Source: Trachythela sp. YZ-2020 (lineage: Eukaryota; Cnidaria; Anthozoa; Malacalcyonacea; Clavulariidae). Taken from it: 64,000 nt of DNA. Made by a program: the position numbers and the translations under genes. The notes under the pieces are model-generated. The model was not told the DNA's origin, ran no database searches, and saw nothing but the letters and a program-made list of their open reading frames with translations. The DNA lies in contig JADLSH010000035.1 in assembly GCA_016169945.1 (NCBI GenBank), forward strand, positions 744,001 through 808,000. Reading direction: 5' to 3'. Of this stretch, positions 8,536 to 61,810 are shown piece by piece; within the stretch, counting starts at the first letter, position 1, and the number at the start of each line of letters is the position of its first letter.

Positions 8536-8757
8536 GACATCAATCCGGTCGAACATATTTTCCACATAGTTAAGAGCAATCTACAGATGCAGGCTAGACA
8601 CACAGGGAATCAATCATGAAACATGGACGGAGATCAAGGATAGAGTTTGGAAAACATTGCTAGATACTTCTGTAGATTTGTCAATACTTTACTATTAAGT
8701 ATGCCTAGACGCGCAGGCGCAGTGATTGCTGGAAAGGGCTACAGAACAAAATACTAG
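8536..8757 (+). pseudogene. Tc1/mariner-like transposase C-terminal fragment
   Basis: Translation gives DINPVEHIFHIVKSNLQ, which contains the NPxE motif with the third catalytic acidic residue of Tc1 transposases. After a frameshift it gives HETWTEIKDRVW and the diagnostic end SMPRRAGAVIAGKGYRTKY followed by TAG. Only the last 70 or so codons remain. Partial duplicates beginning at GGAATCAATC (10801 and 15177) are carried by the triplicated unit. No N-terminal DNA-binding domain is visible upstream. Confidence 0.8.
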
Positions 8758-9304
8758 TTTATTGATTAAACACGTGACATTGATATTGAGCTCACTACCA
8801 CACGGTTCTCACTACGAATCTCACCTAAATATTTACACCTTATATGCGCTGTAAATTACTTCTTAGCAACTTATATTTAACAAGGTCGCGATGGGGGACT
8901 GACATCATGCATATCAGATATGCCAGCATGATTTTATAACTTTTAAGGACGATATAACCAAGTGAGAGATGATTTTTGAGCAACGATTCTCACTTCCGTT
9001 ATAAAGAAAGCAGTGAGATATCAAGTTCATTTACTGTTTTCTGGTGAGAACCGTTCAAAATAGACCACTATTTCCTATATATCTTAACTATACCATAAAT
9101 TTACTATAACATTATTTTTGTACACATTGTGTTATAGAAATTAGCAAATATAAAATGTATGTTCTTAAAACCCCGAGAAAAAAACTATATTTAATAGTGA
9201 GATCCGTGCATGAGCCGAGTGAGCCTCGTTCACTAAATTGTTTGTTGACAGACAAGCATATGATTATCGCTAATTATCTTATCCTGTCAGCATATTATTG
9301 TTTG

Positions 9305-9568
9305 CTAATGTTCGGCATTCTTAAAAATAAGCTTCGCAAAGCAACGACGACAAGGTTCGACTTGTTTTTGCTCATCTTTTGGTATTTGACGATGTAATTT
9401 GAACATACGCCAACGGACATCCATTATTTCAGTGTTGACCCGATCCACACTTGCCCCATTCACTAAGGCGAGAGGGGCGTCAATAGTCGCGAAAAACGGC
9501 GTATCCTTCTCTAGCACAATAACTTTTTTCGTGAAGTTCCACATTTTGCGCAAACAATTGTAATCCAT
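9305..9568 (-). CDS. Hypothetical 87-codon ORF (copy 1 of 3)
   Basis: The minus-strand frame MDYNCLRKMWNF...KNAEH recurs unchanged at 11498-11761 and 15876-16139 because it rides in the triplicated unit. The copies are too recent for their identity to count as selection. I do not recognise a domain. It sits between a Tc1 fragment and a MITE, so it may be mobile-element debris. Confidence 0.3.
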   Translation of the reverse strand: MDYNCLRKMWNFTKKVIVLEKDTPFFATIDAPLALVNGASVDRVNTEIMDVRWRMFKLHRQIPKDEQKQVEPCRRCFAKLIFKNAEH

Positions 9569-9817
9569 CTCTTAGAAACATGTCCGAAATGTGATTAAGT
9601 TTACAGTTTGTAGCGCAGTTTTACTCACAAGTAAAAATACTATAAGAAATGCCCACCCTCCTCGAAGAATGACCTACATATAGACCACACAAGCTCCTCT
9701 GAAAAGAAAAAATTTCTGTTCTTAGTTTCTAAAGTAATAAATATACTTTTAAGTCAAATAATCTGACTAAGAAAATATTCTTTAAGATCACTATGTATAT
9801 AAGTGTGCAAACCTCAG

Positions 9818-10070
9818 ACAATCTTTGCCAGAAACTATGGGACAAATATTGAAATTCCATCACGCATCTTATGTTCAGTTCTCCCCGCGCGTCCCGTTCA
9901 ATTTTGGTATCACAAAAAAGTAATACATCGCAAACGAGACATCTCCTGACATGAGCGCAACATTGAAACGGGTGGGAGAGGGAGGGGGAGCAATTACGTT
10001 AAAAAATGTTATAAATACTATATTTCTTCAATGAAGCTATATTGTCCCAAAGTATTATGGCAAAGATTGT
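9818..10070. mobile_element. MITE, 253 bp, copy B
   Basis: It has the same inverted ends as the copy at 8189 (ACAATCTTTGCC and GGCAAAGATTGT). It is carried in unit copy 1 and duplicated with it. Confidence 0.75.
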
Positions 10071-10165
10071 AGTCAGTGTTGGGGGACGGGGCATGGGAGA
10101 GGATTATGGGCGTATGAATGACGTAATTTAGCCAATTCATGTCCTTACTGACTGCTTAGCAACAC

Positions 10166-10170
10166 CAAGA

Positions 10171-10224
<54 letters not shown>

Positions 10225-10316
10225 GTGTAGGTTTAGGTCTGCCTGATGATTCTTTTACAGATGAAACAGCCTGTTGCAGACCAGTTTTGAGGCAAGCGAA
10301 TATATATATATATATA
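10166..10316. repeat. (TA)n microsatellite enclosing a PLE terminus
   Basis: Long (AT)n runs at about 10168-10222 and a shorter run at about 10298-10315 flank a minimal Penelope-type terminus. That terminus begins ACGTGTAGGTTTAGGTCT, which is also the left end sequence seen near the PLE at 53.25 kb. Confidence 0.85.
10236..10282 (+). ncRNA. PLE-type hammerhead-like ribozyme motif
   Basis: Stem I GGTCTGC (10236-10242) pairs perfectly with GCAGACC (10276-10282). The conserved core CTGATGA is at 10243-10249 and GAAA at 10263-10266. The stem II arms are TCT/AGA with a U-U mismatch at the base. Stem III is minimal, ending U-U before stem I. The order fits a type I hammerhead like those reported in Penelope-like elements. 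The weak stem II base may reduce activity. Confidence 0.7.
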
Positions 10317-10800
10317 TGACATGTTGTGATAAGTTCACTCGGTAATATGGAAGAAATGTTCTTCGAGTGAATTGTTCCAAACCGCGTAAGCAGAAAATAC
10401 TGCTTGCCGTGGCAGGATTCGGACCCGCGACCTTAGAAATGCTAGCTCGATGCTCTACCTACTGAGCTACACGGTCAAGTCCGATAATGGCCTGGGATTT
10501 ATTAATTATAATGCTGAATTTCGTAAACAAACTCGTTTATATCAATGCAGCATCGAACTATGCTCAGTTCTACAATGATATGAAATGTTGTGATAAGTTC
10601 ACTCGGTAATATGATAGGAAGAAATGTTCTTCGAGTGAATTTTTCCAAACCGCGTAAGCAGAAAATACTGCTTGCCGTGGCTGGGATTCGATATAAACGA
10701 GTATGTTTACGTAATTCAGCATTATAATTAATAAATCCCAGGCCATTATCGGACTTGACCGTGTAGATCAGTAGGTAGAGCATCGAGCTAGCATTTCTAA
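10310..10800. repeat. tRNA-like foldback cluster (unit copy 1, truncated)
   Basis: Minus-strand tRNA-like sequence at about 10412-10475 (A-box TAGCTCAGTAGGTAGAGC, B-box GGGTCCGAATCC) is followed by an inverted partial copy. Shared blocks such as AATCCCAGGCCATTATCGG occur in both directions. The 93-codon minus frame at 10502-10783 is a by-product of this repeat. The most complete version is at 16876-17445. Confidence 0.7.
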
Positions 10801-11497
10801 GGAATCAATCATGAAACATGGACGGAGATCAAGGATAGAGTTTGGAAAACATTGCTAGATACTTCTGTAGATTTGTCAATACTTTACTATTAAGTATGCC
10901 TAGACGCGCAGGCGCAGTGATTGCTGGAAAGGGCTACAGAACAAAATACTAGTTTATTGATTAAACACGTGACATTGATATTGAGCTCACTACCACACGG
11001 TTCTCACTACGAATCTCACCTAAATATTTACACCTTATATGCGCTGTAAATTACTTCTTAGCAACTTATATTTAACAAGGTCGCGATGGAGGACTGACAT
11101 CATGCATATCAGATATGCCAGCATGATTTTATAACTTTTAAGGACGATATAACCAAGTGAGAGATGATTTTTGAGCAACGATTCTCACTTCCGTTATAAA
11201 GAAAGCAGTGAGATATCAAGTTCATTTACTGTTTTCTGGTGAGAACCGTTCAAAATAGACCACTATTTCCTATATATCTTAACTATACCATAAATTTACT
11301 ATAACATTATTTTGTACACATTGTGTTATAGAAATTAGCAAATATAAAATGTATGTTCTTAAAACCCGAGAAAAAAACTATATTTAATAGTGAGATCCGT
11401 GCATGAGCCGAGTGAGCCTCGTTCACTAAATTGTTTGTTGACAGACAAGCATATGATTATCGCTAATTATCTTATCCTGTCAGCATATTATTGTTTG

Positions 11498-11761
11498 CTA
11501 ATGTTCGGCATTCTTAAAAATAAGCTTCGCAAAGCAACGACGACAAGGTTCGACTTGTTTTTGCTCATCTTTTGGTATTTGACGATGTAATTTGAACATA
11601 CGCCAACGGACATCCATTATTTCAGTGTTGACCCGATCCACACTTGCCCCATTCACTAAGGCGAGAGGGGCGTCAATAGTCGCGAAAAACGGCGTATCCT
11701 TCTCTAGCACAATAACTTTTTTCGTGAAGTTCCACATTTTGCGCAAACAATTGTAATCCAT
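11498..11761 (-). CDS. Hypothetical 87-codon ORF (copy 2 of 3)
   Basis: Identical to the frame at 9305-9568. It lies in unit copy 2 and its function is not recognised. Confidence 0.3.
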   Translation of the reverse strand: MDYNCLRKMWNFTKKVIVLEKDTPFFATIDAPLALVNGASVDRVNTEIMDVRWRMFKLHRQIPKDEQKQVEPCRRCFAKLIFKNAEH

Positions 11762-12010
11762 CTCTTAGAAACATGTCCGAAATGTGATTAAGTTTACAGT
11801 TTGTAGCGCAGTTTTACTCACAAGTAAAAATACTATAAGAAATGCCCACCCTCCTCGAAGAATGACCTACATATAGACCACAAAAGCTCCTCTGAAAAGA
11901 AAAAATTTCTGTTCTTAGTTTCTAAAGTAATAAATATACTTTTAAGTCAAATAATCTGACTAAGAAAATATTCTTTAAGATCACTATGTATATAAGTGTG
12001 CAAACCTCAG

Positions 12011-12263
12011 ACAATCTTTGCCAGAAACTATGGGACAAATATTGAAATTCCATCACGCATCTTATGTTCAGTTCTCCCCGCGCGTCCCGTTCAATTTTGG
12101 TATCACAAAAAAGTAATACATCGCAAACGAGACATCTCCTGACATGAGCGCAACATTGAAACGGGTGGGAGAGGGAGGGGGAGCAATTACGTTAAAAAAT
12201 GTTATAAATACTATATTTCCTCAATGAAGCTATATTGTCCCAAAGTATTATGGCAAAGATTGT
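12011..12263. mobile_element. MITE, 253 bp, copy C
   Basis: This is the duplicate of the MITE at 9818, carried in unit copy 2. Confidence 0.75.
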
Positions 12264-12510
12264 AGTCAGTGTTGGGGGACGGGGCATGGGAGAGGATTAT
12301 GGGCGTATGAATGACGTAATTTAGCCAATATCATGTCCTTACTGACTGCTTAGCAACACCAAGATTTAATATATATATATATATAATGCAAAAGCTCACT
12401 TCCCTTGTGGTCGTTTGAGCACTCTGGCCCCAAGACACTTCACGCATGTCTGGATGCGCATGTGTCTGAGTATTGTACCACATGCGCTTGGTGAGGGCAA
12501 GAGTATGGTG

Positions 12511-12518
12511 TATAAATA
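12511..12518 (+). promoter_or_regulatory. TATA-like box in array unit
   Basis: TATAAATA lies 40 bp before the hammerhead stem I in the first unit and at the same offset in every unit. It could drive transcription of the array. This is a sequence match only. Confidence 0.35.
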
Positions 12519-12550
12519 CGAAGTCACTCGCATCTAGACTGCGTTACAAG

Positions 12551-12594
12551 CTGCACTGACGAGCCGTTGAACGGCGAAACATGCATGTCTGCAG
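12551..12594 (+). ncRNA. Type I hammerhead ribozyme (array unit 1)
   Basis: Stem I CTGCA (12551-12555) pairs with TGCAG (12590-12594). The core CTGACGA (12556-12562) matches CUGANGA. Stem II GCCGT/ACGGC has five pairs with a TGA loop. GAAA is at 12576-12579. Stem III is minimal (ACA/TGT with a TGCA loop), leaving GUC, so predicted cleavage is after C12589. All invariant core positions are present. Equivalent motifs start at 12832, 13114 (first base T, still a wobble pair), 13396, 13678, 13959, 14241 and 14523. Confidence 0.85.
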
Positions 12595-14611
12595 ATTTGA
12601 CTATATATGCTCCTTCACTTGTGTTGTTGAGCACTCTGTGAGGTTAATTGGTGGCTAATAAGCTATAATGCAAAAGCTCACTTCCTTGTGGTCGTTTGAG
12701 CACTCTGGCCCCAAGACACTTCACGCATGTCTGGATGCGCATGTGTCTGAGTATTGTACCACATGCGCTTGGTGAGGGCAAGAGTATGGTGTATAAATAC
12801 AAAGTCACTCGCATCTAGACTGCGTTACAAGCTGCACTGACGAGCCGTTGAACGGCGAAACATGCATGTCTGCAGATTTGACTATATATGCTCCTTCACT
12901 TGTGTTGTTGAGCACTCTGTGAGGTTAATTGGTGGCTAATAAGCTATAATGCAAAAGCTCACTTCCCTTGTGGTCGTTTGAGCACTCTGGCCCCAAGACA
13001 CTTCACGCATGTCTGGATGCGCATGTGTCTGAGTATTGTACCACATGCGCTTGGTGAGGGCAAGAGTATGGTGTATAAATACGAAGTCACTCGCATCTAG
13101 ACTGCGTTACAAGTTGCACTGACGAGCCGTTGAACGGCGAAACATGCATGTCTGCAGATTTGACTATATATGCTCCTTCACTTGTGTTGTTGAGCACTCT
13201 GTGAGGTTAATTGGTGGCTAATAAGCTATAATGCAAAAGCTCACTTTCCTTGTGGTCGTTTGAGCACTCTGGCCCCAAGACACTTCACGCATGTCTGGAT
13301 GCGCATGTGTCTGAGTATTGTACCACATGCGCTTGGTGAGGGCAAGAGTATGGTGTATAAATACGAAGTCACTCGCATCTAGACTGCGTTACAAGCTGCA
13401 CTGACGAGCCGTTGAACGGCGAAACATGCATGTCTGCAGATTTGACTATATATGCTCCTTCACTTGTGTTGTTGAGCACTCTGTGAGGTTAATTGGTGGC
13501 TAATAAGCTATAATGCAAAAGCTCACTTCCCTTGTGGTCGTTTGAGCACTCTGGCCCCAAGACACTTCACGCATGTCTGGATGCGCATGTGTCTGAGTAT
13601 TGTACCACATGCGCTTGGTGAGGGCAAGAGTATGGTGTATAAATACGAAGTCACTCGCATCTAGACTGCGTTACAAGCTGCACTGACGAGCCGTTGAACG
13701 GCGAAACATGCATGTCTGCAGATTTGACTATATATGCTCCTTCACTTGTGTTGTTGAGCACTCTGTGAGGTTAATTGGTGGCTAATAAGCTATAATGCAA
13801 AAGCTCACTTCCTTGTGGTCGTTTGAGCACTCTGGCCCCAAGACACTTCACGCATGTCTGGATGCGCATGTGTCTGAGTATTGTACCACATGCGCTTGGT
13901 GAGGGCAAGAGTATGGTGTATAAATACGAAGTCACTCGCATCTAGACTGCGTTACAAGCTGCACTGACGAGCCGTTGAACGGCGAAACATGCATGTCTGC
14001 AGATTTGACTATATATGCTCCTTCACTTGTGTTGTTGAGCACTCTGTGAGGTTAATTGGTGGCTAATAAGCTATAATGCAAAAGCTCACTTCCCTTGTGG
14101 TCGTTTGAGCACTCTGGCCCCAAGACACTTCACGCATGTCTGGATGCGCATGTGTCTGAGTATTGTACCACATGCGCTTGGTGAGGGCAAGAGTATGGTG
14201 TATAAATACGAAGTCACTCGCATCTAGACTGCGTTACAAGCTGCACTGACGAGCCGTTGAACGGCGAAACATGCATGTCTGCAGATTTGACTATATATGC
14301 TCCTTCACTTGTGTTGTTGAGCACTCTGTGAGGTTAATTGGTGGCTAATAAGCTATAATGCAAAAGCTCACTTCCCTTGTGGTCGTTTGAGCACTCTGGC
14401 CCCAAGACACTTCACGCATGTCTGGATGCGCATGTGTCTGAGTATTGTACCACATGCGCTTGGTGAGGGCAAGAGTATGGTGTATAAATACGAAGTCACT
14501 CGCATCTAGACTGCGTTACAAGCTGCACTGACGAGCCGTTGAACGGCGAAACATGCATGTCTGCAGATTTGACTATATATATATATATATATATATATAC
14601 GTGTAGGTTTA

Positions 14612-14658
14612 GGTCTGCCTGATGATTCTTTTACAGATGAAACAGCCTGTTGCAGACC
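14612..14658 (+). ncRNA. PLE-type hammerhead-like motif (unit copy 2)
   Basis: It has the same sequence and fold as 10236-10282 and lies immediately downstream of the 282-bp array and its (TA)n flank. Confidence 0.7.
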
Positions 14659-14877
14659 AGTTTTGAGGCAAGCGAATATATATATATATATATGACATGT
14701 TGTGATAAGTTCACTCGGTAATATGGAAGAAATGTTCTTCGAGTGAATTGTTCCAAACCGCGTAAGCAGAAAATACTGCTTGCCGTGGCAGGATTCGGAC
14801 CCGCGACCTTAGAAATGCTAGCTCGATGCTCTACCTACTGAGCTACACGGTCAAGTCCGATAATGGCCTGGGATTTA

Positions 14878-15176
14878 TTAATTATAATGCTGAATTTCGT
14901 AAACAAACTCGTTTATATCAATGCAGCATCGAACTATGCTCAGTTCTACAATGATATGAAATGTTGTGATAAGTTCACTCGGTAATATGATAGGAAGAAA
15001 TGTTCTTCGAGTGAATTTTTCCAAACCGCGTAAGCAGAAAATACTGCTTGCCGTGGCTGGGATTCGATATAAACGAGTATGTTTACGTAATTCAGCATTA
15101 TAATTAATAAATCCCAGGCCATTATCGGACTTGACCGTGTAGATCAGTAGGTAGAGCATCGAGCTAGCATTTCTAA
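14878..15176. repeat. tRNA-like foldback cluster (unit copy 2)
   Basis: Duplicate of the cluster at 10310-10800. The preceding part is at about 14690-14877. Confidence 0.65.
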
Positions 15177-15875
15177 GGAATCAATCATGAAACATGGACG
15201 GAGATCAAGGATAGAGTTTGGAAAACATTGCTAGATACTTCTGTAGATTTGTCAATACTTTACTATTAAGTATGCCTAGACGCGCAGGCGCAGTGATTGC
15301 TGGAAAGGGCTACAGAACAAAATACTAGTTTATTGATTAAACACGTGACATTGATATTGAGCTCACTACCACACGGTTCTCACTACGAATCTCACCTAAA
15401 TATTTACACCTTATATGCGCTGTAAATTACTTCTTAGCAACTTATATTTAACAAGGTCGCGATGGAGGACTGACATCATGCATATCAGATATGCCAGCAT
15501 GATTTTATAACTTTTAAGGACGATATAACCAAGTGAGAGATGATTTTTGAGCAACGATTCTCACTTCCGTTATAAAGAAAGCAGTGAGATATCAAGTTCA
15601 TTTACTGTTTTCTGGTGAGAACCGTTCAAAATAGACCACTATTTCCTATATATCTTAACTATACCATAAATTTACTATAACATTATTTTTGTACACATTG
15701 TGTTATAGAAATTAGCAAATATAAAATGTATGTTCTTAAAACCCCGAGAAAAAAACTATATTTAATAGTGAGATCCGTGCATGAGCCGAGTGAGCCTCGT
15801 TCACTAAATTGTTTGTTGACAGACAAGCATATGATTATCGCTAATTATCTTATCCTGTCAGCATATTATTGTTTG

Positions 15876-16139
15876 CTAATGTTCGGCATTCTTAAAAATA
15901 AGCTTCGCAAAGCAACGACGACAAGGTTCGACTTGTTTTTGCTCATCTTTTGGTATTTGACGATGTAATTTGAACATACGCCAACGGACATCCATTATTT
16001 CAGTGTTGACCCGATCCACACTTGCCCCATTCACTAAGGCGAGAGGGGCGTCAATAGTCGCGAAAAACGGCGTATCCTTCTCTAGCACAATAACTTTTTT
16101 CGTGAAGTTCCACATTTTGCGCAAACAATTGTAATCCAT
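15876..16139 (-). CDS. Hypothetical 87-codon ORF (copy 3 of 3)
   Basis: Identical to the frame at 9305-9568. It lies in unit copy 3. Confidence 0.3.
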   Translation of the reverse strand: MDYNCLRKMWNFTKKVIVLEKDTPFFATIDAPLALVNGASVDRVNTEIMDVRWRMFKLHRQIPKDEQKQVEPCRRCFAKLIFKNAEH

Positions 16140-16388
16140 CTCTTAGAAACATGTCCGAAATGTGATTAAGTTTACAGTTTGTAGCGCAGTTTTACTCACA
16201 AGTAAAAATACTATAAGAAATGCCCACCCTCCTCGAAGAATGACCTACATATAGACCACAAAAGCTCCTCTGAAAAGAAAATATTTCTGTTCTTAGTTTC
16301 TAAAGTAATAAATATACTTTTAAGTCAAATAATCTGACTAAGAAAATATTCTTTAAGATCACTATGTATATAAGTGTGCAAACCTCAG

Positions 16389-16641
16389 ACAATCTTTGCC
16401 AGAAACTATGGGACAAATATTGAAATTCCATCACGCATCTTATGTTCAGTTCTCCCCGCGCGTCCCGTTCAATTTTGGTATCACAAAAAAGTAATACATC
16501 GCAAACGAGACATCTCCTGACATGAGCGCAACATTGAAACGGGTGGGAGAGGGAGGGGGAGCAATTACGTTAAAAAATGTTATAAATACTATATTTCCTC
16601 AATGAAGCTATATTGTCCCAAAGTATTATGGCAAAGATTGT
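16389..16641. mobile_element. MITE, 253 bp, copy D
   Basis: Duplicate of the MITE at 9818, carried in unit copy 3. Confidence 0.75.
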
Positions 16642-16742
16642 AGTCAGTGTTGGGGGACGGGGCATGGGAGAGGATTATGGGCGTATGAATGACGTAATTT
16701 AGCCAATATCATGTCCTTACTGACTGCTTAGCAACACCAAGA

Positions 16743-16782
<40 letters not shown>

Positions 16783-16793
16783 GTGTAGGTTTA

Positions 16794-16840
16794 GGTCTGC
16801 CTGATGATTCTTTTACAGATGAAACAGCCTGTTGCAGACC
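16794..16840 (+). ncRNA. PLE-type hammerhead-like motif (unit copy 3)
   Basis: Same sequence and fold as 10236-10282, again between (TA)n runs. Confidence 0.7.
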
Positions 16841-16875
16841 AGTTTTGAGGCAAGCGAATATATATATATATATAT

Positions 16876-17442
16876 GACATGTTGTGATAAGTTCACTCGG
16901 TAATATGGAAGAAATGTTCTTCGAGTGAATTGTTCCAAACCGCGTAAGCAGAAAATACTGCTTGCCGTGGCAGGATTCGGACCCGCGACCTTAGAAATGC
17001 TAGCTCGATGCTCTACCTACTGAGCTACACGGTCAAGTCCGATAATGGCCTGGGATTTATTAATTATAATGCTGAATTTCGTAAACAAACTCGTTTATAT
17101 CAATGCAGCATCGAACTATGCTCAGTTCTACAATGATATGAAATGTTGTGATAAGTTCACTCGGTAATATGATAGGAAGAAATGTTCTTCGAGTGAATTG
17201 TTCCAAACCGCGTAAGCAGAAAATACTGCTTGCCGTGGCTGGGATTCGATATAAACGAGTATGTTTACGTAATTCAGCATTATAATTAATAAATCCCAGG
17301 CCATTATCGGACTTGACCGTGTAGATCAGTAGGTAGAGCATCGAGCTAGCATTTCTAAGGTCGCGGGTTCGATTCCCAGCCACGGCAAGCAGTATTTTCT
17401 GCTTACGCGGTTTGGAACAATTCACTCGAAGAACATTTCTTC

Positions 17443-23325: not shown

Positions 23326-26068
23326 ACAAACTTTAATTCCTCCAATATTGAAGATATCTAGGTACAATATTTAAAAACTATAAAATGTTTAAATATATAA
23401 AATGTCAACAAACAAAAAATTAAAAAATGATTAATTTCATGAATGGTCAGTTCTAATTAAAGCTAGTTTGTTCTGTTATAGTTAACAGCATGTTAATATG
23501 TCTGACAACAATTAAAGAAAGTTCGTCCATCAGGCCTTCGTTTCCGCATCCATGGTAAATACGTCTGCTGAGTAAGCATATGTATAGTTCGACATCATCC
23601 ATTGACTGAAGAATAGCCAAAATACTTGTCGGAAGACTATCTGATATCTCGTCCCACATTTTGTTCCGCCAGCTACTTGTGTGTGAACATCTCATAATAA
23701 AATGGAAGTTAACATTCCAAACTTGAACTTTGCAAAAAATACAGCGGGTCGTCTCATCACATTTCGTCCACAAATTGAAAAGTCTCGGAGTATTTCCACA
23801 AACAATCTTTGCTACTTTCAATATTGAAAATTTCAAGTGAGAATTTCTTCTTGCCAACTTCCAGAGGTGTAGGGGTTCCAGTTTCGTATGAACTTCTTTA
23901 AAGAAAACGAGTTCTTCTTTGTTTAACATGCCGTTTCTCCACTTTAGCTCCTCGTATCTCTTGATTTCAATATAAACTTGTTTCCTCCAGGTGTTCCTTG
24001 TTGGAAAGGTTAATTCGCCAATATAAGTAGTGAGATAGCTTGTAAGGTTGTATTTTTGTATAATGCGGATTATATCAGGAAAGAAGCTAAGTTTTTGTTT
24101 TCGTGGATTTGTAAGGTATGAGAAAAGGCGATTGATGAAGATCTGTTTTGTAACCATTGTTGGCCTTGATAAACATAAGCGACCGAAGTACTTTAACTTG
24201 GCCTTGTCGATGTAACCTTCCATTGACCACAGGCCTAAACTTCCAACTGCTGCTTCAGATCTGGTATTAGGATCTAAACCTTGAATACACTTCGCATTGA
24301 AGCGCAGACTTCTTTCAATTGATGTTGTTTCATGCTGAGTTAAATTGTTCCAAAGTTCGCAACCGTACATAGCAGTCGGAAACACAACAGTGCACAATAG
24401 ATTGGCACCACAAATTGGATTTATAGCATTCGGACGAGCGCCGATATTGGAAACATTTGCCATCGTTGATTTTGCTTTTGCACAAGCATTGAGTGTGCGT
24501 TTTACGCTCGAAAAATTCCCGGATAGTTATATTCCAACATGTGGCCAACTTTCCTTTTCTTCTATTTTAACACCATACAAAGTCCACTGGCGGGAATTCA
24601 TAAGCTTGTTCCGCATTTGCGTAGATTCGCCAAAAGTTACTATAGTTGTTTTGGATGGACTGATCTCAAAACGCCATTTAATACTGTAACGTTCCAAAGA
24701 GTCCAGCATGACTTGTAGACCCTTAACACGTGTGGACATTATGGTAATGTCATCGGCGACCATAACTGGATTGCATTCGAGATTGTTCAGCCAAAGGCCT
24801 TCACCGCATTCGTCAAAAATGTTAGGTAAATCGTCGTTGAATATCATGAAGAGCCATGGTGACAAAACACCTCCTTGTCTTACTCCTTGTAAAATCGGGA
24901 ATTCGGCAGACGGTACACCATCAAACATAACGCGACTTTTAACTGGGAGTACCAATTTCTGAGGAGTCTCCAAGTTTTCCCTTTAATACCAAGATTGAAC
25001 ATTTTGTAGAAGAGGCCAGGGATCCACACAGTATCGAATGCTTTTGTGGTGTCCAAGAAACAACAATAAACTTTGCTACCATTTTCAATGTTATGTAGTG
25101 CAGCTTCTTTTAGTGACAACGTTGCATCAAGGCAGCTTTTCCCTTTTTGGTACGCATATTGCATGCTGTTAGGAAATCCCCTTCTGATGAAAAAAGGGGT
25201 CCATCTATCGAGTATTAATCGTTCGAATATTTTTCCGATTACATTCAACAGCGTAATGCCACGGTAATTATTTTTGTCGTGTCTATTTTTCTTGTTATGT
25301 TTAAAAAGTGAAATAATGTCACCGACCGCAAGAGCACTTGGGATCTTTTCTTCGACTCTATTTGCATTGAGAACCTCAGTGAGTACTTGAAATACCGCAT
25401 GACCGCCACACTTTATATGTTCGTAAAACAAAGAATCTGGACCACATGCTTTCCCATTAGGTAATTCATTGCACGTTCTACTGACTTCTTCAACAGTGAA
25501 AGCTGTATTCAAAGCATCAAAGCTCGCGCTGAAACTCTCAATTTCATAGTCATTCAAACAACTTTCGACATGAGAAGCAAACTCTGCGTCAAAATTTGGA
25601 TTCGGTTTAGGAGTGTACAATTGCGAGTAGTGGTCTTTCCATACCTCACGCAGTTCGTTCGTGTCACTTATAAATTTTCCGTCAATCTTCAGACTATTTG
25701 TTTGTAGTCTTCTCTTTTTCCGTCGAGATGACATGATGCGTTGAAATGCGCTATTGTCTTGCTCAAAAATATTTTCGAAATGTTCGTACTCTTTGCACTC
25801 GTATTCGTGAGCCTTTCGTCTGAGATGCCTTCTAAAATCACGTTTTGCCTGCTTGTAAGCGCGGAAAGTTTCACTGTCTGGAGCTCGCGGGCGTCCTTGC
25901 ATGATCCAAAGTTTTCTGTAGTGACGACATTTGTCGTGCAATGGTTTTAGGCCTTCTTTCCAGTAGGGTTTAAGATAATCCCTGAAGCTTGATTTAGGAA
26001 TAGATTGATCTGCTGATGATTTAAGCGTAGTTGTTAAGTTGTTTAATAGCTCACTTACTGAAGCGATG
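23324..26068 (-). mobile_element. Non-LTR retrotransposon, 5' truncated
   Basis: It spans from the repeat tail at 23323 to a 5' truncation at about 26068. It encodes the linker and RT to the C-terminus in three frames. A matching TCTTA-type repeat sits directly before its 5' end (26069-26184), so it may have landed in, or next to, the tail of an earlier copy. Confidence 0.8.
23453..26064 (-). pseudogene. LINE reverse transcriptase, frameshifted
   Basis: From 26064 leftward, a linker rich in Arg/Lys leads to NGKACGPDSLFYEH (RT motif 1), YRGITLLNVIGKIFERL, CCFLDTTKAFDTVW (motif A, about 25040), a frameshift near 24970, QGVRQGGVLSPWLFMI (motif B) and VADDITIMS (motif C, about 24750). MVADD replaces the usual YADD. 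Another frameshift near 24530 leads to a C-terminal region (24463-23453) with NAINPICGANLLCTVVFPTAMYG, YFGRLC and CIFC..VNFHFIMRC, a zinc-knuckle-like HxxxxC end. At least two frameshifts disable it. The clade is not certain. Confidence 0.8.
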
Positions 26069-26184
26069 TCCTCAATAAGATAAGATAAGATAAGATAAGA
26101 TAAGATAAGACCAAGATAAGGCAAGACCAAGATAAGATAAGACCAAGATAAGATAAGACCAAGATAAGACTTGGTAAGATAAGA
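26069..26184 (-). repeat. Second TCTTA/TCTTGG repeat block
   Basis: The same 5- and 11-bp units as at 23059-23323 join the LINE 5' truncation point on one side and a foreign RT fragment on the other. Confidence 0.8.
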
Positions 26185-26262
26185 CCAAGCCAATGGTTCA
26201 TTTATAATTTCATAGTGATTCAGCTTCCGAATAAGAATATATTGCTCAACTGTATCAAATAT
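26185..26262 (-). pseudogene. Short RT motif-A fragment of another LINE
   Basis: It encodes IFDTVEQYILIRKLNHYEI followed by EPLAW, which resembles the FDTVNHxILLxKL.HYGI motif of CR1-type RTs. It is unlike the neighbouring LINE and is broken by the repeat block. Confidence 0.6.
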
Positions 26263-26704
26263 CTTACTCAGGGGGGGCTGATTATATGGAGGAAATTTAA
26301 CCCGGTTACTGGAGTGTGGAAAAGAGGGGGGAGTGAAAAACAGTGCCTTCCTAAAATCGATCAAGGAGTAAAAAACATGACTTATTTGAAATTAACAATG
26401 AAATACATTTATTCTACGCCATGCGCTCATAACCACACGAGTAGACTCATGTGGTAGACGTGACTGATTTTCCCACTTCCTGGTTTCATTCTCCCTCATT
26501 TCCATAATCTCAGCTAGATCTGAATTTTCTTAATGTATTGGCCCCATATTCAAGAACAGGACACTTTAGATTAAGAAACCGTTATCTACCACTTGGTACC
26601 ACGTTCTGTGTGATTCTCACGTCGTGTTACCTAAATTTGCATGGTTAATGTACAAACTGAGTGCTGACACGGAAGAATGGTTTGAACGGAAACCATTGAG
26701 TAAA
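26263..26704. other. Unassigned spacer
   Basis: I see no gene or repeat that I can support. Confidence 0.35.
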
Positions 26705-41465: not shown

Positions 41466-43028
41466 AACATAGAGATATTAGTATAGAAAGAGAAAAAGGC
41501 AGATATATAGACGCAGATAGGGGTAGGGATATAAATATAGAGATATAGGCAAACGCAGAGATAGAGACAGGGCCAGATATAGAAATAGAGACCGAGATAG
41601 AGACAGATATAGAGACAGATATAGAGACAGGGGCAGAGATAGAAATAGAGACCGAGATAGAGACAGATATAGAGACATGGGCAGAGATAGAAATAGAAAT
41701 AGAAATAGAGACAGAGACAGAGAAAGAGACAGAAATAGAGAGAGATATAGAGACAGGGGAAGAGATAGAAATAGAAACGGAGATAGAGACAGAGATAGAG
41801 ACAGGGGCAGAGATAGAAATAGAGACAGAGAAAGAGACAGAAATAGAGATATAGAGACAGGGGCAGAGATGGAAATAGAAATAGAAATAGAGACAGAGAC
41901 AGAGAAAGAGACAGAAATAGAGAGAGATATAGAGACAGGGGAAGAGATAGAAATAGAAACGGAGATAGGGACAGATATAGAGACAGGGGCAGAGATAGAA
42001 ATAGAGACAGAGAAAGAGACAGAAATAGAGATATAGAGACAGGGGCAGAGATAGAAATAGAGACCGAGATAGAGACAGATATAGAGACAGATATAGAGAC
42101 AGATATAGAGACAGATATAGAGACAGATATAGAGACAGATATAGAGACAGGGGCAGAGATAGAAATAGAGACAGAGAAAGAGACAGAAATAGAGATATAG
42201 AGACAGGGGCAGAGATAGAAATAGAGACCGAGATAGAGACAGATATAGAGACAGATATAGAGACAGATATAGAGACAGATATAGAGACAGATATAGAGAC
42301 AGATATAGAGACAGGGGCAGAGATAGAAATAGAGACAGAGATAGAGACAGATATAGAGACAGATATAGAGACAGATATAGAGACAGATATAGAGACAGAT
42401 ATAGAGACAGATATAGAGACAGATATAGAGACAGATATAGAGACAGATATAGAGACAGATATAGAGACAGGGGTAGAGATAGAAATAGAGACCGAGATAG
42501 AGACAGATATAGAGACGTGGGCAGAGATAGAAATAGAGACAGAGAAAGAGACAGAAATAGAGAGAGATAGAGAGACAGGGGCAGAGATAGAAATAGAAAC
42601 GGAGATAGAAACGGAGATAGGGACAGATATAGAGACAGGGGCAGAGATAGAAATAGAGACAGAGACAGAGACAGAGACAGATATAGAGATAGAGGCAGAG
42701 ATAGAAATAGAGACAGAGATAGAGACAGATATAGAGACAAGGGCAGAGAAAGAGATAGAAAAAGAGATAGAAAAAGAGATAGAGACAGATATAGAGACAG
42801 GGGCAGAGATAGAAATAGAGACAGAGATAGAGACAGGGGCAGAGATAGAAATAGAGACAGAGATAGAGACAGAAATAGAGACAGAGATAGAGACAGGAGC
42901 AGAGATAAAGATAGAAACAGGGGCAGAGGCAGAGATAGAGACAGCTATAGCAATAGAGATGGAGATAGAGATAGAAACAAAGGCAGAGATATAGATAGGA
43001 ATCGTGTTAGAAATATAGATATAAGATA
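41466..43028. repeat. Homopurine hexamer minisatellite, 1.55 kb
   Basis: The plus strand is almost only A and G, interrupted mainly by T and C at fixed places in AGAGAT, AGAGAC, AGAAAT and AGGGGC units, with higher-order 24- to 36-bp periodicity. All frames of both strands stay open over hundreds of codons (Ser-Ile/Ser-Val on minus, Arg-Asp/Arg-Asn on plus). This follows from the unit and is not evidence for a protein. It ends a few bases before the next exon. Confidence 0.9.
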
Positions 43029-50905: not shown

Positions 50906-50959
50906 TCAATATATATATATATATATGTATAGATTTTCGGCGCTTACCTCAAAATTTGT

Positions 50960-51000
50960 CTGCAACAGGCTGTTTCATCTGTAAAAGAATCATCAGGCAG
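50960..51000 (-). ncRNA. PLE hammerhead-like ribozyme (minus)
   Basis: On the minus strand, stem I CTGC/GCAG, core CTGATGA, then GAAA and a minimal stem III occur in the same order as at 10236. It lies between the RT 3' end and (TA)n. Confidence 0.65.
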
Positions 51001-51026
51001 TAACAAGTATCGAAAGAAATGACCGC

Positions 51027-53227
51027 TTATGTGCTTCCTGTCGGAACGTGGGGGTGTATGTGGGAGACAATGTGTGCATGCATGGCTTTGTTTGCGTTGT
51101 TTACGCCAAATTTGTTGCGATGACGACAACGTGAAATTATTTCAGCTCTTTTGTTGAGTAAACAATTCTTGTTTCTTTCTTTCAAAATACAAAATTTTTC
51201 TTCTAAACATAAATTGCATCGTCTTGATCCTCCCGTGTACGAAATAGAATGTTTTAAAATTTGCCAATTAATACTGAAATCCATATTGTTTTCTTTCAAT
51301 GTCCAAACAAATTTCGAAAGTTCCATGTCGTTTGCATGCTTTTTATGCTGAAAAGATTTAGTGTGGTTGCCAATCGCTCTTTGAATGTGGTTGCAGTCAT
51401 GCCAATGTAATTTTTGAACGTGTTTGTGTTGCTTACTGTAACTGTTGCTTTGTATACTATGTCCCTAGTCATGCATTCTTTTTGAAGCGGGCAAATGGTG
51501 TTTTCTCTACAACTGCAATTGGTAGTGTCCCTATCCTTTGCCTTGTTATTCCTAGATATGCGTGCATTGTGTTTAGTGATTACTGACTTGACATTGTTCA
51601 TGCAGCTGTAACTTACTTTAACTGTATTGCTGTTAAAAATTTTATGGAGCTTGTGGTGCGGTAGAAAATGTTTGTCAATTAGAATAAGGAAATTACGTCC
51701 TATGTTTGTGCTAACACTCTTGCTAAATGGTGGGTTGAACCAAATGATGTTGCGTTGCCTATTCCTGCGTTGTTGTTGCGGTGTGTGCTGAGTGTAGCTA
51801 AGTTCATGATTAAAGCTGCTATGCCTAAGTGCGTTCTGATATATGGGTGCAGATTCCTGAAAAGTTTGCTCATCTGATGAAAGAAGTGCAATGCGCTTGT
51901 TAATTGATGCAGGTAGTTGCCTTGTGATGTTCGACGGGTGATTTAGAGTGCATATTTTTGTATAGTGGATCGTCATTGGGCTTCCTATAGGGCCTATGTT
52001 TTCTATTGTTAAGGTCGAAAGTTACATCTAAAAAGTTTATTATGCGTAAATTTGATTCGGCGGTAATTTTTAGGTCAAACTGCTCGAAAATTTTGTGGAG
52101 ATCTTTTCTTGTTTTGTCTGCTAAACGTGCTGATTTACTTTTTATAATAGCCAAGCCGTCATCTCTATATAGGCCGATGCTTTCTTTGCCAAATTTCTTA
52201 CTCAGGTGGTTTTAAATGAAAAGGCCTATTAACTCACAAATTTCCGCGCAGTCGAAACTGCCCACGGTAACGTCAGACAAACTCTTGCTATTTTTTTTTA
52301 TCCATGAAATTCCGGTATTGAAAAGCAGAGATTTTCTAGCGTGTTTTATTATTGAAATATCGTTTTCAGGTATAGTAGCCAAATTTGAAGCCTAAGATAA
52401 AGCTTTGTCCAATAGTTTTCAGAAATGAATGGGTAGAAATCGACAATATCAAACGAAATAAAACTGTGTCTGTCCTTATCTTTTATATTGCCAAACCACT
52501 GAATAACGTGTTTTGTATTCCTCCATTGATTTAATTTCAAGTTTTTGTCTCAAATTAAAATTAATTTTGTCCAAAATAACTTTGCTTATTTTTCCGGATT
52601 CGCTTTTAGCGGGATTAATCAATCGGCTCTTTTCTTTGTGGTCTTTTAAAGATATAAATGCTTCGTGTTTTTTCATTTTTTCTATTCTGTCGCCTATTCC
52701 TAAATTGTTCGAAATGTTTTTTAGTTCTGAATCAATTTCATCTATAGTGTCCTCGGATCCATGCTTATATGTTTTTGTGATGTTCTCATGTAAGAGCTTG
52801 TTGTATGTGTCGAGCGAGGTTTCATAAATATTCCTAGTTTTGTCTGCAAAAATGAAAATGTTAGGAGAGGAATTGATTTTCTTGAGATCGTTAGTCAAAG
52901 ATTTCTGAAATTGGTTCCTATATGGCCGAAATTCTAAATTTTCGATTAGTTTTATAAGGTCGTCTTCGAAAGGTTGCATTTCCGAAATAGAAGGAGGTGT
53001 TTTGTTGGAAGCAAGGCCGAAATGGCTGTTTTGGTTTTCGCTTTTTTTGTTTTTAAGAAAGAAATTAGTTTCCATATCATACGTTTTATTACACTTTCCA
53101 CTTTTTCAATCAAAATTTTCAAAGAAGCGTCCTGTGATGGTATAGGGAAATTCTTTAGTGAATAGTCAAATCGAAATTGCCGCATTTTGAAGTTAAATAT
53201 ATGAATAACGTAAACAAGAGTGCACAA
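51027..53227 (-). pseudogene. Penelope RT plus GIY-YIG endonuclease, frameshifted
   Basis: From 53227 leftward, the N-terminal region (FRFDYSLKNFPIP, then SENQNSHFGLASN, LIENLEFRPYRNQF) leads to FIFADKTRNIYE, AFISLKDHKEK and RLINPAKSESGKISK, which are typical of Penelope RTs. Motif A is FISFDIVDFYPFIS at about 52425-52460 and motif C is YRDDGLAI at about 52150-52175. The connector has HSKSPVEHHK, and a Cys-rich stretch NCSCRENTICPLQKEC precedes GIY-YIG (KNYIGMTATTFKERL at about 51370-51415). The end is RCRHRNKFGVNN. Frameshifts lie near 53070, 52520, 52350-52160 and 51360. All catalytic motifs are still readable, so it died recently. Confidence 0.9.
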
Positions 53228-53244
53228 CCGATATACGAGTGCAA

Positions 53245-53511
53245 ATATACGTGTAGGTTTAGGTCTACGAAACCCAAAGAGTGCTCGACAACATATAGTT
53301 AGAGCAAATTATAGATTTTCGCTTATACATGTAGGTTTAGGTCTACGAAACACAAAGAGTGCTCGACAACATATAGTTAGAGGAAATTATCAAATTTCAG
53401 TTGTAGAGAAAACACCATTTGCCCGTTGTAGAGAAATTAGGGCAAATTATCAAATTTCAGTTGTAGAGAAAACATCATTTGCCAGTTGTAGAGAAATTAG
53501 CAAATTTCAGT
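53245..53511 (+). repeat. PLE terminal repeats and shuffled pieces
   Basis: Two copies of an end sequence (GTAGGTTTAGGTCTACGAAA, then AGAGTGCTCGACAACATATA) are followed by three copies of CAAATTTCAGTTGTAGAGAA. The last piece derives from the Cys-rich coding stretch before the GIY-YIG domain. This points to template switching or slippage at insertion. Confidence 0.7.
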
Positions 53512-54080
53512 TGTAGAGAAAACAACATTTGCCCGCTTCAAAAACAGTGCATGACTAGGGACATAGTATACAAAGCAACAGTCACAGTAAGCAACACAAA
53601 CACGATCAAAAATTACATTGGCATGACGCAACCACATTCAAAGAGCGATTGGCCAACCACACTAAATCTTTTCAGCATAAAAAGCATGCAAACGACACGG
53701 AACTTTCGAAATATATTTGGACATTGAAAGAAAACAATAAGGATTTCAGTATTAATTGGCAAATTTTAAAACATTCTATTTCGTACACGGGAGGATCAAA
53801 ACGATGCAATTTATGTTTAGAAGAAAAAATTTGTATTTTGAAAGAAAAAAACAAGAATTATTTACTCAACAAAAGAGCTGAAATAATTTTACGATGTCGT
53901 CATCGTAACAAATTTCGCGTAAACAACGCAAACAAAGCCATGCATGCGCACATTGTCTGCCACATACACCCCCACGCTCCGGCAGGAAGCATATAAGCGG
54001 TCATTTCTTTCGATACTTGTCACTGCCTGATGATTCTTTTACAGATGAAACAGCCTGTTGCAGACCAGTTTTGAAGTAAG
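53512..54080 (+). pseudogene. Second PLE copy, GIY-YIG end only
   Basis: It encodes CRENNICPLQKQCMTRDIVYK, TIKNYIGMT, a frameshift, then ELSKYIWTLKENNKDFSINW, KRCNLCLEEKICILKEKN and RCRHRNKFRVNNAN. This is a closely related plus-strand copy, 5' truncated and inverted relative to the element at 51-53 kb. Its hammerhead-bearing terminus is at 54023-54063. Confidence 0.85.
54023..54063 (+). ncRNA. PLE hammerhead-like ribozyme (plus)
   Basis: Stem I CTGC/GCAG, CTGATGA at 54027-54033, GAAA at 54047-54050, minimal stem III. (TA)n follows at about 54085-54101. Confidence 0.65.
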
Positions 54081-54104
54081 CGAATATATATATATATATA
54101 TGTG

Positions 54105-54707: not shown

Positions 54708-55199
54708 GGTATATATAGAGATGACGGACTAGTCGCATTCAACCAAACGCCTAGAGAAATTGAAAATATCAAGAAACAAATTTTCAGCGATCACAACCTG
54801 AAGCTCACGATAGAGGCGAACAAAAATGTGCCGACTACTTAGATGTTACATTCGATCTAAGAACCGGTACCTACAAGCCATACACGAAATCCGGAAACAT
54901 ACCGCAATACATTAACCGCCACAGCAACCATCCGCGATCTATAGTCCGCGGCATACCAGATGCGATCAATCGTAGGCTATCTCGTCCGACCAGAGAGCAT
55001 TTGAGACAGCCATTCCACCTTACTAGAAAGCCCTGAAGAAAGCGAACACGAGTATAAGCTTCATGTTAACCCCAGCCACCAAAACCGAAACGCTCGCGAG
55101 GCAGACACGTATAATAAAAACCCCTTTAAAAGACACTTGAAGCAAGTCTACAGTTACGCGAGAAGACAACGCGAAAGAAGAAACCTACGTTGGTCTTAC
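54708..55199 (+). pseudogene. Fragment of a different Penelope-like RT
   Basis: It begins at RT motif C ([19 protein letters not shown]), then [10 protein letters not shown], a frameshift near 54830, [19 protein letters not shown] and YINRHSNHPRSIVRGIP. Another frameshift near 55035 is followed by LHVNPSHQNRNAREADTYNK and RRQRERRNLRWSY. Sequence and spacing differ from the PLE at 51-53 kb, so this is a second lineage. It lacks the earlier RT motifs and the GIY-YIG domain. Confidence 0.8.
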
Positions 55200-55207
55200 T
55201 GCACTCT

Positions 55208-55575
55208 AAAAACAGGTGTGTTTAATTACACACCAAGGTGTTTTTAATGACACATCAATGTGTGTTTCATTACACACCAAGGTGTGTACTTTTTACACAC
55301 CTTTCTACGCACTTTTGGAAAACACACCTTGGTGTGTTAGAAAACGCACCTTGGTGTGTAAGAGAACACACCATGGTGGGTCACAAAACACACCAAGGTG
55401 TGTTATGGAACACACTTCCTTTAAGAACACCTTTCTTTGATGACTGTAAGGTGTGTTAAGTTGCACACCTTTTGAATGAAAACACATCTTGGTGTGTTCG
55501 ACAACACACCTTTGACTTTTTATAGAAACACACCTTGGTGTGTTACAGAACACACCTCGCACCGATTTTTTAAAC
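55208..55575. repeat. ACACACC-GGTGTGT palindrome array 1
   Basis: About 12-15 short palindromes of the type AACACACCTTGGTGTGTT are separated by 5-25 bp of variable sequence. A second array is at 60862-61155. Confidence 0.85.
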
Positions 55576-60402: not shown

Positions 60403-60840
60403 CCTTATCCTTTCTTCAGGAAATTGTGTTGCGATCAAGCGATAATGCATACAAAGGTACAAAGTACTCAGCATTAATGTCTGAACTAAACAGTAGCATG
60501 TCAATAGCTGAAAACGAACTGTAGAACTATTCTCTTATGAATTAAGCTAACTGTAATCCTACAAAATAGTCTGTACATTATTTAATAGTCTTAACGTTAC
60601 TTTATAGTCTTAATAAATTATTTAACAATTATTATAGTATTATGCTTTCTTATATAATGGTAAAACTAGATTCAAAAATCATGGTTGCCACAGAGTAACT
60701 TTGAAAATACAAAGCACTGCACAATCTGGGAATGAGTATGACATTTGAATTCTGTGTTTCAACCATCTTGCAATCATTGAAACATAGAATTAAGATGTCA
60801 ACCATTTTCGATGTGTGCATTGTCAATACATGTGTTGTTT
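60403..60840. other. Unassigned spacer
   Basis: Nothing supportable is present. Confidence 0.35.
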
Positions 60841-60861
60841 AGCACAGCTTTAGCTGTGTAA

Positions 60862-61155
60862 TAAAACACACCTTGGTGCGTGTCAAAACACACCTTGGTG
60901 TGTTTCAAAACACACCTTGATGTGTTAGAAAACACACCTTGGTGTGTTAGAAAACACACCTTCTTCCAAAACACACCTTTAGGTGTGTTAAAAATTGGAC
61001 AAGCCGGACACACCTTTAGGTGTGTTTTCTAACACACCTTATGGTGTGTTTAGCACATCTTTTGGTGTGTAACTAAACACACCTCAAGGTGTGTTTAACA
61101 CACCCTATGGTGTGTTTAACACACCTTAGGTGTGTATCAAAACACACCTTGGGTG
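60862..61155. repeat. ACACACC-GGTGTGT palindrome array 2
   Basis: It has the same palindromic units as at 55208-55575, denser here, with about 12 in 290 bp. It abuts the 5' truncation of the next LINE fragment. Confidence 0.85.
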
Positions 61156-61750
61156 TCGGACTTTCAAACAGGCTTCAAAAACTCCAAAATAGAGCTGCTA
61201 GAGTCATAATGAACTTTGGAAATGATATTTCTGGACCAGAAGCAATAAAAGCGTTAGGATGGGAAACTCTTGAGACTCGACGAGCCAAGTCCAAAGCAAA
61301 AACAATAATACGACCTCAGGGGCTCTTCTACCTCGCTGCACTTGCCTCAACCAAAAACTGAAAAGTTAAAGAAAAGTTTCTCATACGATGGAGCTGGAGT
61401 TTGGAATTCTCTACCTGCAGATGTGCGTAATTCGGATACATTGACAATATTCAAAAACGGAATTCGTGCTCATACCTCCTAAATTTTTTTCTAAATTAAA
61501 TTCTATTTTTCTGTAATTCAATTTTTAAATTTATGCATGCCTTATTTGTCATACTTGTGTTCAGTATAGCGTATCGTAGATGTGGTTCATTGTACTATAT
61601 AATATGTATGTAATGTATATAATTGTATAATGTTATGTTCTTAAATATGTTATTCACACGCCCCTCGTGGAAACCAGCTTTAAAGTTGACGAGGCTAGCG
61701 TGTGACTTTTAAATAAAGTTTTACTACTACTACTACTACTACAACTACTT
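61156..61750 (+). mobile_element. CR1-like LINE 3' end, 5' truncated
   Basis: It encodes LSNRLQKLQNRAARVIMNF, EAIKALGWETLETRRAKSK, a frameshift near 61360, then SYDGAGVWNSLPADVRNSDT and FKNGIRAHTS before a stop at about 61480. This is the classic C-terminal end of CR1-type ORF2. The 3' UTR ends TTTAAATAAAGTTTTACTAC followed by (TAC)n at 61722-61742. Only about the last 110 codons remain. Confidence 0.8.
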
Positions 61751-61810
61751 GCGCCACAAACATTGCACACTGACCCTATATCGATCGGTAAACACGTTGA
61801 GAAACGCGAA

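Follow-up and report, generated by a model that had tools for sequence, protein, structure and literature searches.

A hammerhead retrozyme array at a (TA)n site of Trachythela and its likely link to a Penelope-like element

Metazoan retrozymes, as defined by Cervera and de la Pena (2020; PMC7229834), are dispersed, tandem, non-coding units of 170-400 nt that carry a type I hammerhead ribozyme and reside together with Penelope-like elements (PLEs); their RNA circles were proposed to be copied by LINEs or PLEs. According to a 2020 review, animal retrozyme repeats have no conserved motif that would reveal their autonomous partner (PMC7761336); in a 2024 review the candidates for copying them were still LINEs or PLEs (PMC11722881). 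For the PLE of Anolis, initiation in vitro was internal and 3' of the hammerhead, both strands were cut in AT-rich DNA and two start sites were used; hammerhead mutants were inserted normally, and unprocessed RNA was the main substrate (PMC11167929). All four papers are cited here for selected passages.

The array described here lies in a window of 64,000 nt (the whole stretch of DNA that was analysed) from Trachythela sp. YZ-2020 and is of the metazoan retrozyme type, with the same tandem non-coding layout, type I hammerhead, dispersal and co-resident PLEs. What sets it apart from the retrozymes in the cited passages of PMC7229834 are its empty insertion sites, a 3' end fixed within (TA)n and a box in common with a resident PLE. 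Retrozymes themselves are already known; the stronger finds, absent from an earlier note on this DNA, are the (TA)n target with its empty sites, the constant position of the 3' end and the link to a PLE. Neither a fixed (TA)n end nor a box shared with PLEs was found for animal retrozymes among the titles and abstract openings listed by literature searches.

Tandem Repeats Finder gave the array a period of 282, 7.8 copies and 99% matches (Table 1). Its seven units measured from cut to cut are each 281 or 282 nt long with 3 variable columns, and the sequence flanking both array ends is non-repeated. The earlier note had counted eight units in register; there are eight hammerheads, but the first and last units are partial. 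Its statements that the array lacks an open reading frame and has a TATA box at a constant offset were borne out, the longest stop-free stretch being 62 codons and TATAAATAC being present in 8 of 8 units. The note's reading of the array as a metazoan retrozyme also held: unit size, tandem layout, type I hammerhead, absence of an open reading frame and dispersal all support it, and published metazoan retrozymes agree with the array in these features (PMC7229834). The GC content is 46.6-46.8%; the published figures for retrozymes differ, being <50% in the text and <45% in a legend (PMC7229834), and the array lies below the first and above the second. On this sequence evidence the identification of the array as a metazoan-type retrozyme, a small non-coding jumping element, is supported, and its RNA probably undergoes self-cleavage and circularisation. 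Other repeats in the window include ~22-bp arrays based on a palindrome similar to ACACACCTTGGTGTGT (55193-55557 and 60831-61156), a 12-bp array in which either strand has long open frames (41556-42998), and three 300-nt stretches at 934-bp spacing that are 100% identical (61808-63975).

Table 1. Positions, within the window, of the retrozyme array, its parts, its insertion site and neighbouring PLE sequence.
Feature	Position	Strand	Remark
Tandem triplication, ~2.19 kb	8606-17360		copy starts 8606, 10801, 15177; array in middle copy
Empty (TA)n site, triplication copy A	10175-10223
(TA)n target, left part	12370-12385
Retrozyme array, 7.8 units of 281-282 bp	12382-14580	+	Tandem Repeats Finder, cut-to-cut units
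TATAAATAC, first unit	12511-12519	+	putative promoter
TATAAATAC, other units (starts)	12792, 13074, 13356, 13638, 13919, 14201, 14483	+
Hammerhead 1 (stem I to stem I)	12551-12594	+	predicted cut after 12589
Hammerhead 2	12832-12875	+	predicted cut after 12870
Hammerhead 3, stem I variant TTGCA	13114-13157	+	predicted cut after 13152
Hammerhead 4	13396-13439	+	predicted cut after 13434
Hammerhead 5	13678-13721	+	predicted cut after 13716
Hammerhead 6	13959-14002	+	predicted cut after 13997
Hammerhead 7	14241-14284	+	predicted cut after 14279
Hammerhead 8	14523-14566	+	predicted cut after 14561
Box TGCTC...GAGCACTCT	12608-12637	+	common to PLE tail and retrozyme
GAGCACTCT, other complete units	12910, 13192, 13474, 13756, 14037, 14319	+
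CTATATAT, unit nt 12-19	14573-14580	+	fixed right end of array; predicted reverse-transcription start
Right TA run	14574-14599		overlaps TATATAT of last unit
PLE fragment with minimal hammerhead	14600-14684	+	adjoins array
Empty (TA)n site, triplication copy C	16747-16781
PLE 3' end	53559-54101	+	C-terminal reading frame, minimal hammerhead (54022-54065), TA run

A type I hammerhead descriptor applied to both strands of the window matched 8 motifs, all on the plus strand and all in the array, and 40 first-order Markov simulations gave 0 matches. The eight sites read CTGCA-CTGACGA-GCCGT-TGA-ACGGC-GAAA-CATGCATG-TC/TGCAG (the slash marks the predicted cut), one of them with TTGCA. The T at 13114 behind this variant, which the earlier note took as a hint that the fold matters, is real, but a single U.G wobble is weak evidence because the conserved core is altered in other genomic copies (L010, L042). 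The covariance-model check proposed in the note gave a weak result: two Rfam searches gave matches below the gathering score, namely Hammerhead_3 at 13108 with 22.4 bits (gathering 48.5) and, for 91 nt searched alone, Hammerhead_HH9 with 23.0 bits (E 4.5e-4, gathering 52). Stem III of the array hammerheads has 2 bp only. The predicted full-unit fold forms stem II and stem I, the latter with a further 4-bp part; predicted folds have one bulged A in stem I and UGA as loop II. Most conserved loop contact bases are missing from the published hammerheads of mussel retrozymes. Folding of the monomeric core gives the hammerhead no advantage (-11.4 vs. -13.9 kcal/mol), and the fold energy of a 71-nt piece was not better than that of shuffles (z 0.17). 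For two copies, pairing at the palindrome ACAUGCAUGU is predicted to give a double hammerhead (-39.5 vs. 2 x -13.9 kcal/mol), which resembles the newt and axolotl dimers described in PMC7229834. Newt satellite 2 and the axolotl retrozymes share the weak helix III and a palindromic loop able to pair two hammerheads; theirs differ in sequence and have a unit of ~330-350 bp (PMC7229834). In the L034 subfamily stem II reads GGCGT/ACGCC, with one pair changed on both sides, and a case for selection on the hammerhead fold stands on the thin ground of this one subfamily in partial copies.

The array is present in one copy of a tandem triplication and absent from the other two. With the TA run and the array excluded, the three copies show 2, 3 and 5 base differences and 3-4 gap columns over 2151 columns. 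In copy B, a stretch of 16 nt of TA precedes the array and one of 26 nt follows it, the latter overlapping the unit's own TATATAT. In each copy a tRNA-Ala (AGC), surrounded by inverted repeats, is predicted on the minus strand. Under looser rules for stem II a second motif, a Penelope-type hammerhead, was matched at 10243, 14619 and 16801. Most likely the TA run predates insertion of the array; the alternative, that the other two copies have lost an array, is less likely. Our main reading, to which we assign a probability of about 0.7, is that the array stems from a single insertion event, in which a resident PLE used its reverse transcriptase and GIY-YIG nuclease to copy a non-autonomous, non-LTR retrozyme. 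It is the two empty triplication copies, the fixed right ends, the TA targets and the sequence in common with the PLE tail that make a PLE the likely driver of the retrozyme.

A search of the genome assembly (578 Mb, 396 contigs) with one unit gave at least 161 matches, and with the best 40 of 576 candidates scored the counts are lower bounds; 36 further places beyond the window were fetched. From 53 arrays of at least 95 bp, 44 were analysed, 5 arrays under 140 bp and 4 shared-flank copies on C350/C194 having been dropped. Right ends, counted from the predicted cut, lie at nt 15-22 in 39 of the 44 arrays and exactly at nt 19, after CTATATAT and into TA, in 35; the five exceptions belong to L022, L024 (two), L034 and L038. 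Left ends are spread evenly along the unit (44 arrays, KS p 0.52), and the lengths of the same arrays are non-integer, from 0.53 to 16.5 units. A TA run of at least 10 nt lies no more than 40 nt away from the right end in 32 of the 44 arrays and from the left end in 21, compared with 2.6% of random 40-mers in the retrozyme loci. Microhomology at left ends is slight (2 nt or more in 17 of 32; 26% expected). The combination of a fixed right end and a random left end points to target-primed reverse transcription from one internal start. Of the 53 arrays, 10 have their right end opposite an inverted PLE end and 8 opposite an inverted retrozyme end, and in 6 the left end comes after a PLE end in the same orientation. 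Six loci (L011, L033, L042, L014, L015 and L028) hold tail-to-tail pairs, in which a retrozyme end faces a retrozyme or PLE end across a TA run; cutting and extension of both strands could be the origin of such pairs.

The position of this start, 12-19 nt past the cut, also bears on the template. A cleaved linear monomer would offer only ~19 nt to copy and is therefore unsuited, so the template would have to be continuous across the cut; circles or uncleaved multimers are favoured mainly on this ground. A PLE might have copied a linear multimeric transcript that its hammerheads had left uncut, with no circle formed. Such a transcript is equally continuous across the cut and would correspond to the unprocessed RNA mainly used by the Anolis PLE (PMC11167929), but copying from array to array should pass on the order of variant units, and no common order was noticed informally. 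Moreover, 57 of the 69 variant types were seen once, in a single assembly in which unit variants could be assembly error, and a few arrays have a variant shared by every unit or almost every unit, as would be expected from one circle (position 108 in 4 of 4 units of L014 and position 82 in 8 of 9 units of L038). We consider the linear multimer an unlikely template. Across the family 60 of 124 complete units equal the consensus, and the mean unit difference is 0.43% within arrays and 0.61% between arrays. These figures suggest a recent burst of copies from almost a single sequence, as sampled by a search that favoured close copies. Phages gave no retrozyme match, and viral contigs had no exact match to two hammerhead patterns; a loose pattern for the box discussed below matched at least 120 stretches of the viral contigs, taken as chance, and a stricter pattern matched none.

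The repeats that border many arrays are PLE 3' ends, and the PLE frame at 53559-53996 is present again in retrozyme loci; one locus (L046) has three PLE hammerhead sites with longer PLE frames, in line with tandem PLE copies. Behind the frame lies a minimal hammerhead, CTGATGATTCTTTTACAGATGAAACAGCCTGTT/GCAGAC, whose stem I is 6 bp long and whose stem II is weak, and this minimal type I hammerhead had a fuzzy match at 35 places. A 439-aa PLE piece aligns over 91% of its length, at 75% identity, with a relative of 710 aa that carries PF26215 and in which YRDD and GIY-YIG motifs were read by eye; a Pfam search of three PLE pieces gave no match. The partner PLE is predicted to encode a reverse transcriptase with a GIY-YIG nuclease. 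An inverted pair of PLE 3' fragments with 429-nt arms, 95% complementary, lies at 50941-54082.

PLE insertion ends were sampled with a query that stopped before the end point, in order to reach beyond the neighbours of retrozymes. The best 40 of 1277 candidates were scored, giving 40 places (32 fetched and 8 already in hand), and offsets were counted from 2 nt before the predicted cut. In 15 places a TA run starts at 26-41 nt and in 11 at 93-110 nt; the other 14 places have none starting at either offset. One of the two offsets was thus occupied in 26 of 40 places compared with 1.05% of random window stretches, near-identical places (e.g., L069 and L072) being counted separately, which makes the P values too small. 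The two end points recall the PLE tail. By eye, retrozyme sequence was seen close behind the PLE end in 5 of 32 places (L078, L086, L088, L091 and L096). Two samples were set aside as biased, PLE ends beside retrozymes (39 matches, 35 with a TA run of at least 10) and those from a PLE query itself containing TA; their places were counted only if they were also in the unbiased list.

Nucleotides 12-56 of the retrozyme align with the PLE tail from nt 29 past the PLE cut, the predicted start site. Both stretches open with CTAT at the predicted start and extend beyond GTTGTYGAGCACTCT. The alignment is short (~45 nt with gaps); its score of 22 was reached by 1 of 1000 dinucleotide shuffles and by 2 of 1940 pieces of the window, which itself contains PLE tails, and the antisense score was 7. 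GAGCACTCT occurs 321 times in the 251 kb analysed compared with ~0.7 expected, many occurrences being array units and relatedness being uncorrected. Exclusion of three standard contexts left 20 residual contexts, of which 9 were read at length: in seven (L034 three times, L035, L036, L038 and L042) GAGCACTCT lies either 3' of a hammerhead, or of sequence resembling a degenerate one, or within a retrozyme subfamily; in two, both in L019, it lies in a flank that separates a PLE end or an array from the array that follows. At window position 49382 it lies in no recognised element. The descriptor detected five further type I hammerheads (L034 at 1118 and 1866, L035 at 402 on the minus strand, L042 at 1727 and L043 at 1903); GAGCACTCT is found 53-83 nt downstream, exactly in three and with one mismatch in one, and the L043 hammerhead has no box downstream. 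Random stretches contain the box in 0.8% (exact) and 2.7% (one mismatch) of cases. Common descent could explain part of this sharing.

These sequences suggest, tentatively and at somewhat less than even odds, that PLEs and retrozymes here use one RNA address, consisting of a hammerhead, tens of nucleotides and the box (T)GCTC...GAGCACTCT, which the PLE enzyme would read, and that circularisation would make a non-coding RNA a valid and endless template. As copying would start between ribozyme and box, RNA cut by the ribozyme would be a dead template until its ends were joined. In SINE/LINE pairs with common 3' tails, a non-coding element likewise bears the recognition sequence of its partner; in the retrozyme, by contrast, the common part starts internally and what is inserted is a multimer. 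A LINE that targets (TA)n could itself have copied the retrozyme, and LINE-type reverse transcriptase frames are present in the window (PF00078; 1396-3642, also with PF09004, and 24527-26391). Target-primed copying by a LINE would also yield a fixed 3' end and a random 5' end, but the start is internal and has sequence in common with a PLE tail, and a LINE in place of the PLE is very improbable.

Copying by the PLE would proceed as follows. RNA would be made through the array from the unit's own putative promoter and cut at GUC/UGCAG by the hammerheads, perhaps paired through the palindromic stem III as their structure suggests, and unit-length RNA would be circularised by a host ligase, as published for other animals. 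The PLE protein would recognise the box TGCTC...GAGCACTCT directly 3' of CUAUAUAU, a role suggested by the common sequence. Its nuclease would open the TA run, whose 3' end would prime at CUAUAUAU (nt 12-19); here the junctions are observed and the enzyme is the presumed part. The enzyme would then circle the template for 0.5-16 units and halt anywhere, leaving the observed pattern of a fixed right end and a random left end. The 5 of 44 right ends and the 14 of 40 PLE ends outside the main positions do not fit this model. Like the hammerhead PLEs, the retrozyme combines a hammerhead, an internal start 3' of it, an AT-rich target, an optional tail and tandem copies; unlike them it has no open reading frame, a 282-nt unit and a start that is TA-rich like its target (PMC11167929). 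The start of the Anolis PLE was not homologous to the cut DNA, whereas in the retrozyme TA meets TA (PMC11167929). Spread at the DNA level, by DNA circles recombining at TATATA or by satellite growth, is the least probable explanation: it would fit the tandem layout, and arrays with the same left flank and unequal lengths (11.8, 3.77 and 3.77 units in L019, 16.5 in L030) do indicate some length change after insertion, but crossover of a DNA circle should place both ends at TATATA, and left ends at nt 13 number 2 of 44, and satellite growth predicts neither dispersal nor a single fixed end.

The empty sites, the exact starts and the target and box in common turn the question of the copying enzyme into a defined in vitro test. 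The junctions extend the picture obtained for the Anolis PLE (PMC11167929) to a non-coding element, and the retrozyme family suggests why ribozyme, circle and tandem array go together. If true, one RNA address would explain the co-occurrence of hammerheads, tandem arrays and PLEs in animals.
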